Part shown: positions 14,584-19,440 of the stretch, piece by piece
Layout of the letters: the number at the start of each line of letters is the position of its first letter
Numbering within the stretch: position 1 is the first letter of the stretch
The notes under the pieces: model-generated
Databases searched by the model: none
What the model was told of the DNA's origin: nothing
The model's input: the letters and a program-made list of their open reading frames with translations, nothing else
Assembly: GCA_002401485.1 (NCBI GenBank)
Contig: NVTF01000010.1
Coordinates: forward strand, 1 to 33,865
Length of the DNA stretch: 33,865 nt
Reading direction: 5' to 3'
Origin: Elusimicrobiota bacterium
Lineage (GTDB): Bacteria > Elusimicrobiota > Elusimicrobia > UBA1565
Program-made: the position numbers and the translations under genes

Positions 14584-15309
14584 ATGGGATTCTCACTGAA
14601 TATTAATCTGGGCTCCAAGGGCTGGGGAGCGTCCCATGAGGGATCGGTGCTCCCGGAGACAGACTATGCCCCGGGGAGCGGAAACCGGGTCCTTATTGAC
14701 CACAAAGATGCGGTCTCGGTGGCTATACTCCCGATGATTTTGGGAGTTGTTTTTACCGGAATTTCCGTCTTTATTTTTTTTGAGAACAGCTATAGTTCCG
14801 AATGGATTTTGAAGATTATCATGTGGATTTTTGCCCCTATCGGCCTCTTTTTGTTCTTTAAGGGTGTGCAGACCCTGATCCTATCCATGAAATTCGCGCC
14901 CGGCCGCCTTGCGCCGAGTGTTTGGCCGCTTCGTTTGGGCCAGTCTTTTTCAATGGAATATCGCCGACGTTCTAAAGCCGATGGCACGGTTGATCGAATG
15001 GCGGCCCGGATTTACATCGTTGAAACCGCGATTTATCAACGCGGAACCGATACGGTTACCGATACTGAAGAGGTGTATACCCAGGATCTGGGATATGCCA
15101 TCGCCTCGCAGGGCGGCGATCAAGTCTATCGCGGGCAATGGGATGTTCAAATTCCCGGGGACGGCATGGCGTCCTTTGATGTGAGCCGCAACAAGGTCGA
15201 TTGGATGGTGGAAGTGAAAATGTACGATGGCGAGAAAGAGATCGATGATTCCACCTTCAAGTTGGTGGTGCTGCCTGAAATTGCGGCGGCCAACGAGGTC
15301 TCCTCATGA
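14584..15309 (+). CDS. Membrane-anchored arrestin-like beta-sandwich protein
   Basis: The product has 241 residues. After a short polar N-terminus there are two membrane helices (SVAILPMILGVVFTGISVFI and the stretch around IIMWIFAPIGLFLFF). A C-terminal domain of about 140 residues is rich in beta strands (RLGQSFSMEYRRR, YRGQWDVQIPGDGMASF, VDWMVEVKMY). The strand order and the VDWMVEVKMYDG/FKLVVLP ending resemble arrestin-like or Spo0M-like folds; this is pattern recognition, not a database result. The stop overlaps the next start as ATGA, so the two proteins are made in linked amounts. The domain probably faces the cytoplasm and may interact with the downstream arrestin-like partner and ATPase. 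Confidence 0.7.
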   Translation: MGFSLNINLGSKGWGASHEGSVLPETDYAPGSGNRVLIDHKDAVSVAILPMILGVVFTGISVFIFFENSYSSEWILKIIMWIFAPIGLFLFFKGVQTLILSMKFAPGRLAPSVWPLRLGQSFSMEYRRRSKADGTVDRMAARIYIVETAIYQRGTDTVTDTEEVYTQDLGYAIASQGGDQVYRGQWDVQIPGDGMASFDVSRNKVDWMVEVKMYDGEKEIDDSTFKLVVLPEIAAANEVSS

Positions 15310-15680
15310 TGGAGATTGAGTTTATCAACGCGTCGAATCAAGTCGCGGGAGGCGCGGTGGCGGGGCAGCTAATCCTCCAACCGAAGGAAGATGTTCGCAT
15401 TCAGGCGTCTTCGGTTTCCCTGCACTGGAGAACGGAGGGCCGGGGCGACACGAATGAAGCCGAGGTCTCCAAGGTCGATTTAGGGGCTCTCGGGGATCTT
15501 TCCTCGCGGGATCAGCGCCGTTTTGCATTTGAATTGCCGATCCATCCCGATGGCCCTATTACCTACGATGGAACATTGATACGGGTTATCTGGGAAGTGC
15601 GTGTGCATCTCGATGTTCCGTGGGGTTGGGATAAGAAGCAGGTTTTTCCTGTTCGGGTGGTGCCGCGCGGGGGTGTATGA
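15306..15680 (+). CDS. Soluble arrestin-like beta-sandwich protein
   Basis: The product has 124 residues with no signal peptide or membrane segment. The sequence is a run of strands: NQVAGGAVAGQLILQPKED at the start, a central RRFAFELPIHPDGPITYDG, and LIRVIWEVRVHLDVPWGWD near the end. This pattern (gamma-strand GxVxGxVxL opening and a Tyr-Asp-Gly turn before a long strand) is typical of arrestin-like domains. It overlaps both neighbours by ATGA junctions, so three genes form a single translationally coupled block. It probably binds the membrane-anchored partner or the P-loop ATPase. Confidence 0.65.
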   Translation: MMEIEFINASNQVAGGAVAGQLILQPKEDVRIQASSVSLHWRTEGRGDTNEAEVSKVDLGALGDLSSRDQRRFAFELPIHPDGPITYDGTLIRVIWEVRVHLDVPWGWDKKQVFPVRVVPRGGV

Positions 15681-16306
15681 ACGATCCCTATCACGCGGTG
15701 GGACTGCACCGTAATCCGTTTCGCATCGACCCCGATCCCGGTGTTGTCGAATCACTGTTTCTGAGTCGTGCCTCCCCGAAAGTTCCGGCGCCGAAGGGTC
15801 GACGTTTCCTGCAGGTGATGGGTCCGAGGGGTGCCGGAAAAACAACGTTGCTGCTGCATTGGCGCCGCACCGTTTCGGGTCCGTATCGGTATGTGCCGCC
15901 GAGTCTCGAGCGGTGGCTGCCGCTGCCGATAGCGCCGCTTGTGTATTGGGACGAAGCGGACCGGGTTCCGGCGGAACTTTTCTATCCCGCATTGGCGGCT
16001 TCCCGTCTCTTCGAGTCAACGGTAGTGGTGGGAACCCACGAGGATTTAGGCGCGGCGGCCGCGCGTTTTGGTTTTACGGTTGAGACCTTTGAGATTCCGG
16101 TGATCCGGCCTGAAGAAGTCATGCGTTGGGCGGAGGTTCGCATTCGTGCCGACTCCATGGAACCGGGGTCGCCGGGACTTGTTCTCGAGTATGAAGAGGC
16201 CTGCAGGGTCGCCCGGGACGCCGATCGCAGTTGGCGGCGGGTGGGGGGACACTTGCACCGTTGGGCGGCGGGCATTGTGAATCGGTCGACGACAAGTTAC
16301 ACTTGA
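15677..16306 (+). CDS. Small P-loop ATPase (AAA-like)
   Basis: The product has 209 residues. Walker A is MGPRGAGKTTLL (about residues 55-66) and a Walker B-like strand follows as PLVYWDEAD. A sensor-like Thr follows in VVVGTHEDLG. The N-terminal HAVGLHRNPFRIDPDPG resembles the opening of ExeA/TniB-type ATPases, and the C-terminal helices (EVMRWAEVRIRAD, RRVGGHLHRWAAGIV) resemble an AAA lid. It is shorter than most AAA+ proteins and lacks a clear arginine finger. Its start overlaps the arrestin-like gene stop, so it likely acts on or with those proteins. Confidence 0.75.
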   Translation: MNDPYHAVGLHRNPFRIDPDPGVVESLFLSRASPKVPAPKGRRFLQVMGPRGAGKTTLLLHWRRTVSGPYRYVPPSLERWLPLPIAPLVYWDEADRVPAELFYPALAASRLFESTVVVGTHEDLGAAAARFGFTVETFEIPVIRPEEVMRWAEVRIRADSMEPGSPGLVLEYEEACRVARDADRSWRRVGGHLHRWAAGIVNRSTTSYT

Positions 16307-16322
16307 GGAAGGAGATATTCTT

Positions 16323-17078
16323 ATGATGCGAAGCGCTAACCCGACGCTCAGCCAAGATACCTTTATCGACGCCGCCCGCATGCTGCGTGAGGCCGAGCCT
16401 TCCTCGATGACAATCGACGGAACCGTCAACAAGACCGGCCTCTTGCTTGCGGGCTGCATGCTGACTGCCGGATTTACCTGGAATCGTTTTTTTACCGAGG
16501 GGGCGGCCTCCGTGCAGGGTTTGATGATGATCGGACTCTTCGGCGGATTGATCGCCGCAGTCGTCACCATTTTCAAGAAGGAATGGGCACCGGTGAGCGC
16601 TCCGGCGTACGCATTGCTTGAGGGGTTTTTTCTCGGCGGTATTTCAGCGCGTTTTGAGGCGATGTTTCCTGGAATTGTAATCCAGGCGGTTGGATTAACG
16701 TTTACGACTCTCTTTTCACTGTTGATGGCCTATAAGTCGGGCTTGATCCGGGCGACCGAGAACTACAAACTCATGGTGTCGGCCGCGACGGGCGGCATCT
16801 GCCTGCTCTACCTGGTTAACTTTGCCATGAGTTTCTTCGGGGCGCAGGTTCCCTATATTCATGAGAGCGGGCTGATCGGCATCGGCTTCAGCATGTTTGT
16901 GGTCGGCATCGCCGCCGCAAACCTTGTTCTCGATTTCGATTTTATCGAAGCCGGCGCCGAGCAAGGCGCGCCTAAATTTATGGAATGGTACGGGGCGTTC
17001 GGGCTCATGGTAACGCTTGTCTGGCTGTACCTCGAAATTCTGCATCTCCTCGCGAAACTTCAGTCCCGTCGGGATTGA
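16323..17078 (+). CDS. Bax inhibitor-1/YccA-like membrane protein
   Basis: The product has 251 residues and seven predicted membrane helices. The N-terminal MRSANPTLSQDTF and TIDGTVNKTGLLLAGCMLTA match the BaxI_1-type proteins of bacteria. The last segments contain NLVLDFDFIEAGAEQGAPKF, with the conserved acidic pair, and WYGAFGLMVTLVWLYLEIL. Related proteins are linked to ion leak and stress protection; the bacterial role is unsettled. A good Shine-Dalgarno (GGAAGGAGA) precedes the ATG. It follows the ATPase gene by 16 nt in the same operon. Confidence 0.9.
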   Translation: MMRSANPTLSQDTFIDAARMLREAEPSSMTIDGTVNKTGLLLAGCMLTAGFTWNRFFTEGAASVQGLMMIGLFGGLIAAVVTIFKKEWAPVSAPAYALLEGFFLGGISARFEAMFPGIVIQAVGLTFTTLFSLLMAYKSGLIRATENYKLMVSAATGGICLLYLVNFAMSFFGAQVPYIHESGLIGIGFSMFVVGIAAANLVLDFDFIEAGAEQGAPKFMEWYGAFGLMVTLVWLYLEILHLLAKLQSRRD

Positions 17079-17084
17079 GTTTTT

Positions 17085-18506
17085 GTGCGTTTGATCCTGT
17101 TCTCCGCGCTTTTCTGTATCGTCGTTTTACCGTCGGGGAATGCGGAGGATTATAACGCCGCCCAGGCAAATATCGATGCGATAGAGGCGATGATTCGCGA
17201 GAAACGCGAGGATATTCTCTCGTCGGGATCCCAATATGAGCGGCTGCAGAATCAGAGGTCGCTCGAGCAATCGGAACAAGCCCTCCGCGATGCCCGGCGA
17301 ACGTTGGATGAGATAAAAAAATCGCTCCAGCCGGGAACGAAGGAGTGGGACCAAGAGCTGTTAATCAAGGATGGCCGTGAGTTTCGATCCATTCCTGGTA
17401 GAGAAAAGGATAAGGACAAGGAGGACGAATATAAATACGGAGTCGGGGCTCCCGACGTTGGGCCCGGCGCGGCGATGGATCCGCGCGTGCATCAGCATTC
17501 GTGGGTTGGCGAACCCGGTTCGGGTCCCCGAGGCCCCTTAAAACCGATTGAAATTCCGAAGGTTCCCACGGGGCAGCCTGCGATGAATGGCGTCGATCGG
17601 GTGCATCCCGGCGAGATTCTTTACGGCCGGCCCGCCGGATTTCGCAACAGCCATCGGGGACCGATCCAAGACCCTCGAGAGAGGAAACGTCGTCACGCCG
17701 AGTCTGTCAGCGAATTAAAAAATGCGCCCATCCCTCCTTCGACCGGCAGCGCGCTTGGGGCTGTGCCCGATGTTGATGACGGGGGGCCGATCTTAAATCC
17801 CAATGGTTTCGGGGACACCGGGCGATCCTTTCCCAAGTTGGCGCCCAACGGATTCACCTTCGATGGCCCGGAAGGAGAAATGCTGAAGCAGTTTCCGGAA
17901 CTGGAGATTCGCGAGCGCGGGGTGAGGGGGGAAGGCATCACCCTGATCCGGGATGCGGGGCGCCGTTTGCGTTTAGGAGACACTGGAGGCGCGCTGCGGT
18001 CCGCGGATCGTCTGGCGCAAATCTCTCCGAAGGATCCCGGCGTGCACGAAATGAGGGCTTTGATTCTTAACCGCTTGGGCCGCTTTGTGGAAGCGGAGTC
18101 TGCAGCTCGTTTATCGTTGACGCTGGATGATTCGCGCGGCTCTGCCTGGCGAACACTCGCGTGGGCGCAATTTAAACAAGGCAAGGCGGCCGCGGCGCTG
18201 CGCAGCGCTGAACGCGCGCTGGTGTTGGACCCTCAAGACGCCTCCGCGTTGGCCCTGCGCGCCTACGCCCTGGAGCGTTTGGGCCAACGGAAACAAGCCC
18301 TGCAGTCCATTCAACAGGCCGCCAAAATTCTCCCCGCGTCGTTTGCCGCCGCAGCGGCGCGCGCCGCAGGAGGTGCTCCGGTTTCCCCAAGCCCCGCTCC
18401 GTCCCCGCCTCCCGCTAAGAAGTTCGACCTCCCGCTTTGGGTGGGAGGAGTTGCCGCCGGCGGCCTATTGCTGGGTGTAGGGTGGTTTGCCTTTAAGACC
18501 AAATAG
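17085..18506 (+). CDS. TPR protein with signal peptide and C-terminal membrane anchor
   Basis: The product has 473 residues from GTG 17085, with a signal peptide (MRLILFSALFCIVVLPSGNA). A coiled-coil-like segment (about 25-90, with ERLQNQRSLEQSEQALRDAR) is followed by a Pro/Gly-rich low-complexity middle. Residues about 285-410 hold three or four TPR units, for example GRFVEAESAARLSLTLDDSR and GKAAAALRSAERALVLDPQD. A Pro-rich linker then leads to one membrane helix (WVGGVAAGGLLLGVGWFAF) with a short basic tail. The TPR region is therefore periplasmic and tethered by its C-terminus. It starts 6 nt after the BI-1-like gene. The role is probably as a scaffold; the partner is unknown. Confidence 0.8.
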   Translation: MRLILFSALFCIVVLPSGNAEDYNAAQANIDAIEAMIREKREDILSSGSQYERLQNQRSLEQSEQALRDARRTLDEIKKSLQPGTKEWDQELLIKDGREFRSIPGREKDKDKEDEYKYGVGAPDVGPGAAMDPRVHQHSWVGEPGSGPRGPLKPIEIPKVPTGQPAMNGVDRVHPGEILYGRPAGFRNSHRGPIQDPRERKRRHAESVSELKNAPIPPSTGSALGAVPDVDDGGPILNPNGFGDTGRSFPKLAPNGFTFDGPEGEMLKQFPELEIRERGVRGEGITLIRDAGRRLRLGDTGGALRSADRLAQISPKDPGVHEMRALILNRLGRFVEAESAARLSLTLDDSRGSAWRTLAWAQFKQGKAAAALRSAERALVLDPQDASALALRAYALERLGQRKQALQSIQQAAKILPASFAAAAARAAGGAPVSPSPAPSPPPAKKFDLPLWVGGVAAGGLLLGVGWFAFKTK

Positions 18507-18519
18507 GTAGGCTTTACGT

Positions 18520-19440
18520 ATGGCGCAAATCTCGACGAATTTTGATGGACCTTCCCTCGAACAACAGCCGCTCGGCTCGCGGCCCTTCGCCTACGTGTTG
18601 TCGGGAGGAGCGGCCTTGGGGGCTTGGCAGGGAGGTGTTCTCTGCGCCTTGTCCCAGGAGAAGGGGTGGAATGCGCACTCGGTCATCGGTACCAGTGCCG
18701 GCGCAATTAACGGGGCTGCCTACCTGCAAGGTGATTTCGACCTCTTAAAGGAATTGTGGCGTTCAATTCCACGCGGGCGGTTTATGAAGCGGTCTCTTGG
18801 CTTTTCCCCGCCAAGGCTTTTCTCTTTGGAATCAGTGAAGGAGTATTTGGGAGAGGTTATTTCTGAAGAACGCTGCCGCCAGGGGCGGCGCTGTTGGTTC
18901 TACCCGGTCTCGGTTGATATCGCTCATGGCGAGACCCTGCAATCTGAATTTTCTCCGGAGTCCGAGGGTCCATGGCAGGGACCGTTGATCGATAAAATCG
19001 TCGGGTCCATGGCGGTCCCCTTCGTCTTTCCTCCCGCGCGTGTTCCGCATGAAGACCCGTCCAAAAAAATGCGTGTTCTTGTGGATGGCCATGTCACATC
19101 GCGTCTCTCGTTGGGTGCGCTTGCCTTGCGGGGGGTCCGGGATTTCGTCTTTGTGAACGTCATTAGCCATAAAGAAATGAGAACAAGCAGCTACTCTCCG
19201 CGCGGATTTATTTCAACCATGATCCACCAATTGTTAAACGCGCAGGTCGACAACGGACTCGAACCCTTTCGCGATGGGTTCAAAGAGTTGGGGATTAGGG
19301 CATTTCTCCTTCGCCCCTCCCGACCGCTTGCGATGTCGGTTTTTAAGTTTGATAAACGGGAGTGTCGTGACGCCTTTGAATTAGGGGAACGCGATGCTGT
19401 CCTCTGGGGAGAGTCTCCGAACGGGACTCAGATTCTGTGA
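18520..19440 (+). CDS. Patatin-like phospholipase
   Basis: The product has 306 residues. The oxyanion loop is YVLSGGAALGAWQGGVL, the nucleophile Ser is in VIGTSAGAING (about residue 57), and the dyad Asp is in VLVDGHVTSRL (about residue 189). These are the Ser-Asp dyad elements of the patatin family. No signal peptide is visible, so it acts in the cytoplasm or is delivered by another route. It begins 13 nt after the TPR gene and probably closes the operon that starts at 14584. The likely reaction is hydrolysis of acyl chains from phospholipids; the exact substrate is unknown. Confidence 0.9.
   Translation: MAQISTNFDGPSLEQQPLGSRPFAYVLSGGAALGAWQGGVLCALSQEKGWNAHSVIGTSAGAINGAAYLQGDFDLLKELWRSIPRGRFMKRSLGFSPPRLFSLESVKEYLGEVISEERCRQGRRCWFYPVSVDIAHGETLQSEFSPESEGPWQGPLIDKIVGSMAVPFVFPPARVPHEDPSKKMRVLVDGHVTSRLSLGALALRGVRDFVFVNVISHKEMRTSSYSPRGFISTMIHQLLNAQVDNGLEPFRDGFKELGIRAFLLRPSRPLAMSVFKFDKRECRDAFELGERDAVLWGESPNGTQIL

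Follow-up and report, generated by a model that had tools for sequence, protein, structure and literature searches.

A two-gene arrestin-like pair and a small P-loop ATPase recur together across bacterial phyla and may form a membrane-tethered adaptor unit

Three overlapping genes of an Elusimicrobiota draft genome encode a predicted membrane-anchored arrestin lobe (g1), a soluble arrestin lobe (g2) and a small P-loop ATPase, and the same set of genes is found in genomes of other phyla. We propose, with a probability of roughly 60%, that this trio is a single unit, a membrane-tethered two-lobe arrestin adaptor with its own dedicated ATPase and under ATP control. That the three genes belong to one functional unit is very probable in itself, while for the ATP-controlled adaptor mechanism the chances are a little short of even.

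The window, i.e. the whole stretch of 33,865 nucleotides that was analysed, belongs to contig C123, in a draft genome of 2.9 Mb that is 78% complete. The open reading frames of g1 (14584..15309, 241 aa), g2 (15306..15680, 124 aa), the ATPase (15677..16306, 209 aa) and a Bax inhibitor-1-like membrane protein, BaxI_1 (16323..17078; PF12811, 258.7 bits), were confirmed at these positions, all on the plus strand. The end of g1 overlaps the start of g2 in the ATGA at 15306-15309, and the end of g2 overlaps the start of the ATPase gene in the ATGA at 15677-15680, while BaxI_1 starts at 16323, 16 nt past the ATPase stop, and is preceded by an AGGAG motif. This agrees with an earlier note on this DNA, which had described three genes coupled by ATGA overlaps and followed by a BI-1-like gene. 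Further on, on the same strand, come genes for a TPR protein with hydrophobic stretches at both termini (17085..18506) and for a patatin-like phospholipase (18520..19440), both assigned by profile matches and followed in the neighbourhood and synteny comparisons. As the same order of the three genes recurs across several phyla, the arrangement of the trio in the window is not a product of chance.

The g1 protein is composed of a short N-terminal segment, a two-helix hairpin (about residues 42-103) and a C-lobe-type arrestin domain (about 105-232). The two helices are placed at about 42-69 and 72-100 by hydropathy and at 43-67 and 74-103 in the AlphaFold2 (AF2) model, so that the note's description of one beta protein held by two membrane helices is borne out. 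The AF2 alignments for g1 and g2 had two rows each, the window sequence and that of an Actinomycetota relative (L003), and the g1 model is of low confidence (pLDDT 59). Foldseek searches with this weak model ranked TXNIP and ARRDC3 first (E-values of 6e-6 to 1e-4, the N domain of TXNIP at 6e-6), and found Spo0M too. No Pfam match was obtained for g1, Spo0M included. At the sequence level, g1 aligns to the transmembrane part and C-terminal lobe of fused planctomycete proteins (see below), and this homology together with the weak structural model assigns g1 to the predicted members of the arrestin clan. The charge distribution, read by eye, suggests that the arrestin lobes are cytoplasmic.

The g2 protein scored 23.9 bits against Pfam Spo0M (cut-off 23; covering 21-136 of 213) and 23.6 bits against Arrestin_N, just under the cut-off of 24.9. 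In a whole-genome profile search its Spo0M score was 21.6 bits, below the cut-off, and it was the sole match to that profile in the genome. Neither g1 nor g2 matched Pfam Vps26. The AF2 model of g2 (pLDDT 75.6, from the two-sequence alignment) gave Spo0M 5cl2 as the best single Foldseek match (E = 3e-7), along with the N-lobes of ARRDC3 and TXNIP, VPS26 and beta-arrestin, and the fused planctomycete proteins align with the g2 sequence over their N-terminal lobe. Pfam and Foldseek thus both identify g2 as an arrestin-clan lobe, of N-lobe type. The note had seen an arrestin/Spo0M-like beta-sandwich pair by eye, and structure prediction followed by Foldseek agrees for g2 as well as for g1, the latter through a low-confidence model. 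Elsewhere in the window's class, two genomes encode arrestin-like proteins of a single lobe that have one hydrophobic stretch at the N terminus (L130:4967-5530 and L131:4440-4955); no ATPase match lies close to either.

In the window the two homologous lobes lie in two genes; in fused relatives they lie in one chain. Five planctomycete loci (L020, L022, L023, L024 and L025) contain an ATPase gene followed by a gene for one protein with a g2-like lobe, two helices and a g1-like lobe, and in a further one (L101) the opposite fusion, g1-g2 in one protein, precedes the ATPase. All five of the former proteins pass the Arrestin_N threshold (40.5-65.3 bits) and three of the five pass Arrestin_C, one fused relative reaching 16.7 bits against the Vps26 domain, under the cut-off of 27. 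Searched against the PDB, the profile of the fused proteins found TXNIP (1e-8), ARRDC3 and VPS26C (6e-5). Because fusions in both orders occur in other genomes, we regard g1 and g2 as two lobes of one arrestin, and these fusions argue strongly that the lobes form one clamp. The resemblance of the two beta proteins to arrestins therefore stands, but the note's picture of them as two separate adaptors does not. The proteins of L022, L024 and L025 also contain a conserved C-terminal domain (approximately positions 341-495 of the A5 profile), which has further matches in numerous stand-alone planctomycete proteins about 250-600 aa in length.

The ATPase contains an N-terminal GLxxNPF motif, the Walker A motif GPRGAGKTT, the Walker B motif YWDEADR, a GTHED motif and a conserved Arg near the C terminus. 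Walker A GPRGAGKTT and Walker B VYWDEAD are kept in two family alignments (A1 and A4), where the GTH motif is conserved as well. Matches of the window protein to Pfam AAA_16 and AAA_22 are weak (AAA_22 15.7 bits, cut-off 27), while a trio relative from a planctomycete (L076) passes AAA_22 with 30.7 bits against the same cut-off, and the fold class of this small AAA-like protein is, on these profiles, uncertain. A PDB search yielded matches limited to the P-loop and no closer relative, and naming the protein from the PDB was dropped on that ground. In the larger class of planctomycete ATPases the Walker B motif reads DG instead of the DE of the window protein, and some members of this class may thus bind rather than hydrolyse ATP.

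A first search, in which genome contigs were queried with the ATPase, found two relatives. One of them, an Actinomycetota metagenome-assembled genome (MAG; L003), encodes a membrane arrestin lobe, a small arrestin lobe and the ATPase in the order of the window, and the ends of its genes overlap. On the Anabaena cylindrica plasmid pANACY.03 the order is likewise g1-g2-ATPase with a 4-nt overlap of g1 and g2, and the ATPase gene is split by an inserted 444-codon ORF (L008:3924-6429), presumed from its position to be a transposase. Upstream of this plasmid trio, at a distance of a few kb, are the genes cas1 and csx18. In another Actinomycetota-group genome, from an Actinomycetota-centred search (L089), the order is ATPase-g1-g2.

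The ATPase matched in 11 of 392 planctomycetes, and five of these matches are the loci described above with the g2-helices-g1 fusion. In a test independent of the ATPase, 294 planctomycetes were searched with the fused arrestin profile only, which gave 23 loci with contiguous g1 and g2, 22 of them split and one a g1-g2 fusion. The ATPase family lies directly downstream on the same strand in 19 of these 23 loci (L075-L083, L085-L087, L097-L099 and L101-L104), a count for which the ATPase profile was iterated on the same loci, so that its E-values are partly circular. A profile containing none of these split-trio planctomycete sequences matched ten of their ATPases with E-values from 8e-4 to 1.5e-9; in an all-against-all BLAST comparison the 19 ATPases fall into a single family. 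In three related planctomycetes (L105-L107) the g1-g2 pair is kept and no ATPase occurs in the stretch examined; a conserved protein of about 240 aa, common to the three, is encoded downstream of g2. In an Alienimonas genome (L074) the pair is on one contig and the ATPase on another, and in the related genome G601 some 34 kb separate the ATPase from g1-g2, all three genes nonetheless being present. The note had asked for co-occurrence of the trio in other phyla, and this is what the Actinomycetota, the Anabaena plasmid and the planctomycetes provide; its association of a small GPRGAGKTT ATPase with the beta proteins likewise holds outside this genome.

The pairwise distances of g1, g2 and the ATPase over 25 loci correlate with coefficients of 0.76-0.84, values never reached in 2000 permutations, kinship of the hosts being a contributor. 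In the g1 and g2 trees the window sequence groups with the two Actinomycetota-side trios, and in the ATPase tree with the same two and G601. This grouping with trios of other phyla in all three trees suggests that the trio was transferred as one unit. Among 199 genomes of the window's phylum, the ATPase was found in no other. In a genome of the same genus (G001, locus L129), g1, BaxI_1, the TPR gene and the patatin gene are found in the same order, while g2 and the ATPase are lost. Between g1 and BaxI_1 a scar is left (about L129:5023-5190, minus strand), in which the first part of g2 can be read and, in another frame, the last part of the ATPase gene. Read in this way, the scar is the trace of one internal deletion that took both genes together, the alternative being a MAG assembly error at this place. 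Because G001 keeps g1 and the scar, the trio is judged to be old (ancestral) in the window's genus, and an acquisition unique to the window genome is rejected. Synteny with G001 on both sides of the trio also disfavours a contaminating contig.

Taken as a whole, the recurring gene order across phyla, the fusion of the lobes, the correlated distances of the three genes, the retention of all parts in G601 and the joint loss in G001 are our reasons for reading the trio as one unit. Against it stand the persistence of g1 without g2 and the ATPase in G001, and the loci without an adjacent ATPase, both those with a g1-g2 pair (L105-L107) and those with fused arrestins (L091-L094). In the proposed mechanism, g1 would provide the membrane hairpin and the C-lobe and g2 the N-lobe, and together they would make up one split arrestin clamp at the cytoplasmic face. 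The arrestin surface would capture clients at the inner membrane, and these would be membrane proteins, by analogy only. From the strong association of the genes, we infer that the ATPase acts on the clamp: it would bind it, and ATP binding or hydrolysis would load, release or remodel clients. The three proteins would then probably form a physical complex.

A different reading makes the trio a nucleotide-switched envelope sensor, in which the membrane protein perceives the outside or the state of the membrane and the lobes signal to a STAND/NACHT-like NTPase that works as a switch and not as a motor. Planctomycete g1 proteins carry an added DUF3592 domain between two further helices, which would be outside if the lobes are inside, and planctomycete ATPases combine a DG-type Walker B with sub-threshold NACHT matches, as such a sensor might. 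However, the window g1 lacks DUF3592, the window ATPase has the DE form, and the neighbourhoods of the trio loci share no output domain or transcription factor; we regard the sensor as unlikely. A mobile conflict or defence system directed at phages or plasmids would be consistent with the patchy spread, with the window genome as sole carrier of the ATPase among the 199 of its phylum, and with the plasmid copy close to cas genes. It is very improbable, since the trio is ancestral in the window's genus, has no effector domain and, in planctomycetes, no common defence neighbours; moreover, a phage or defence origin was rejected on the absence of matches in phages or viral contigs, to PADLOC (window proteins, E up to 0.1) and to PHROG (window trio).

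The neighbouring genes bear on a last alternative, in which BI-1, TPR and patatin proteins form one larger envelope machine with the trio, as might be thought from BI-1 following the ATPase on the same strand at only 16 nt. BaxI_1 is present in five of 11 ATPase genomes, but apart from the window genome only one has it within 5 kb of the ATPase. This is L025, where it is encoded on the other strand, some 3.3 kb away from the ATPase/arrestin pair of this planctomycete, the only such case among the other trio loci; in G547, G358 and G240 it is far from the ATPase or on another contig. With this exception the three genes are missing at the other trio loci examined, no fourth gene was conserved across the trio loci in the neighbourhood comparison, and all three genes remain syntenic in the same-genus genome that lost g2 and the ATPase. 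BI-1, TPR and patatin were thus rejected as conserved partners, contrary to what the note had suggested, and the larger machine is hardly credible.

What is known of the arrestin clan in bacteria comes mainly from Spo0M (PF07070, 5cl2), the sporulation-control protein of Bacillus subtilis, which has the arrestin-clan fold in common with the lobes of the trio. In the 5cl2 structure Spo0M forms a single chain of about 250 residues, whereas the lobes of the trio are encoded by separate genes or joined by a transmembrane hairpin, and are accompanied by an ATPase gene. FtsZ is among the division and membrane proteins with which Spo0M co-precipitates in B. subtilis (PMC5325327). The alpha-arrestins TXNIP and ARRDC3, and VPS26 and VPS26C of retromer and retriever, have a two-lobe architecture like that of the trio and are found by sequence with the fused relatives; unlike the trio, they are not encoded together with an ATPase. 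No membrane hairpin is known to separate the lobes in these eukaryotic proteins. The AAA+ protein NSF is large and has two domains. Eukaryotic arrestins bind it, arrestin-1 raising its ATPase activity (PMC11173308), and this arrestin-NSF interaction (also PMC2515105) is one parallel to the trio. Here too an arrestin and an AAA+ ATPase meet at membranes, as proposed for the trio, whose ATPase gene has only about 200 codons and is dedicated to the arrestin. The pairing of PspA/ESCRT-III proteins with an AAA+ ATPase also resembles that of arrestin and ATPase in the trio, the PspA/Snf7 fold being helical, of ESCRT-III type, and not that of an arrestin. PspA/Snf7 operons pair a membrane-associated structural protein with an AAA+ ATPase, with a proposed role in membrane remodelling, in a report that makes no mention of arrestin, Spo0M or DUF3592 (PMC11237479).

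No described system with the composition of the trio was found in the open-access PMC literature, subscription papers and preprints being outside its scope, which accords with the note's statement that it knew of none. Within the reach of open-access searches the individual folds are known and their assembly is apparently undescribed. We tentatively suggest, leaning towards doubt, that it represents a class of bacterial machine that is widespread and so far undescribed, in which a dedicated ATPase drives or gates a membrane-embedded two-lobe arrestin. This arrestin would pick out inner-membrane clients and remodel them, in function like the arrestin/retromer-type cargo adaptors of eukaryotes. 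If true, arrestin adaptors coupled to dedicated ATPases would exist in bacteria, and the trio, which bears on the origin of the eukaryotic arrestin/VPS26 adaptors, offers a small, genetically tractable three-gene set for testing. Many copies of the trio are found in planctomycetes, bacteria noted for their complex membranes. Tandem arrestin-type membrane genes also occur side by side in planctomycetes, at L090:5341-8566 and L084:5263-7858.
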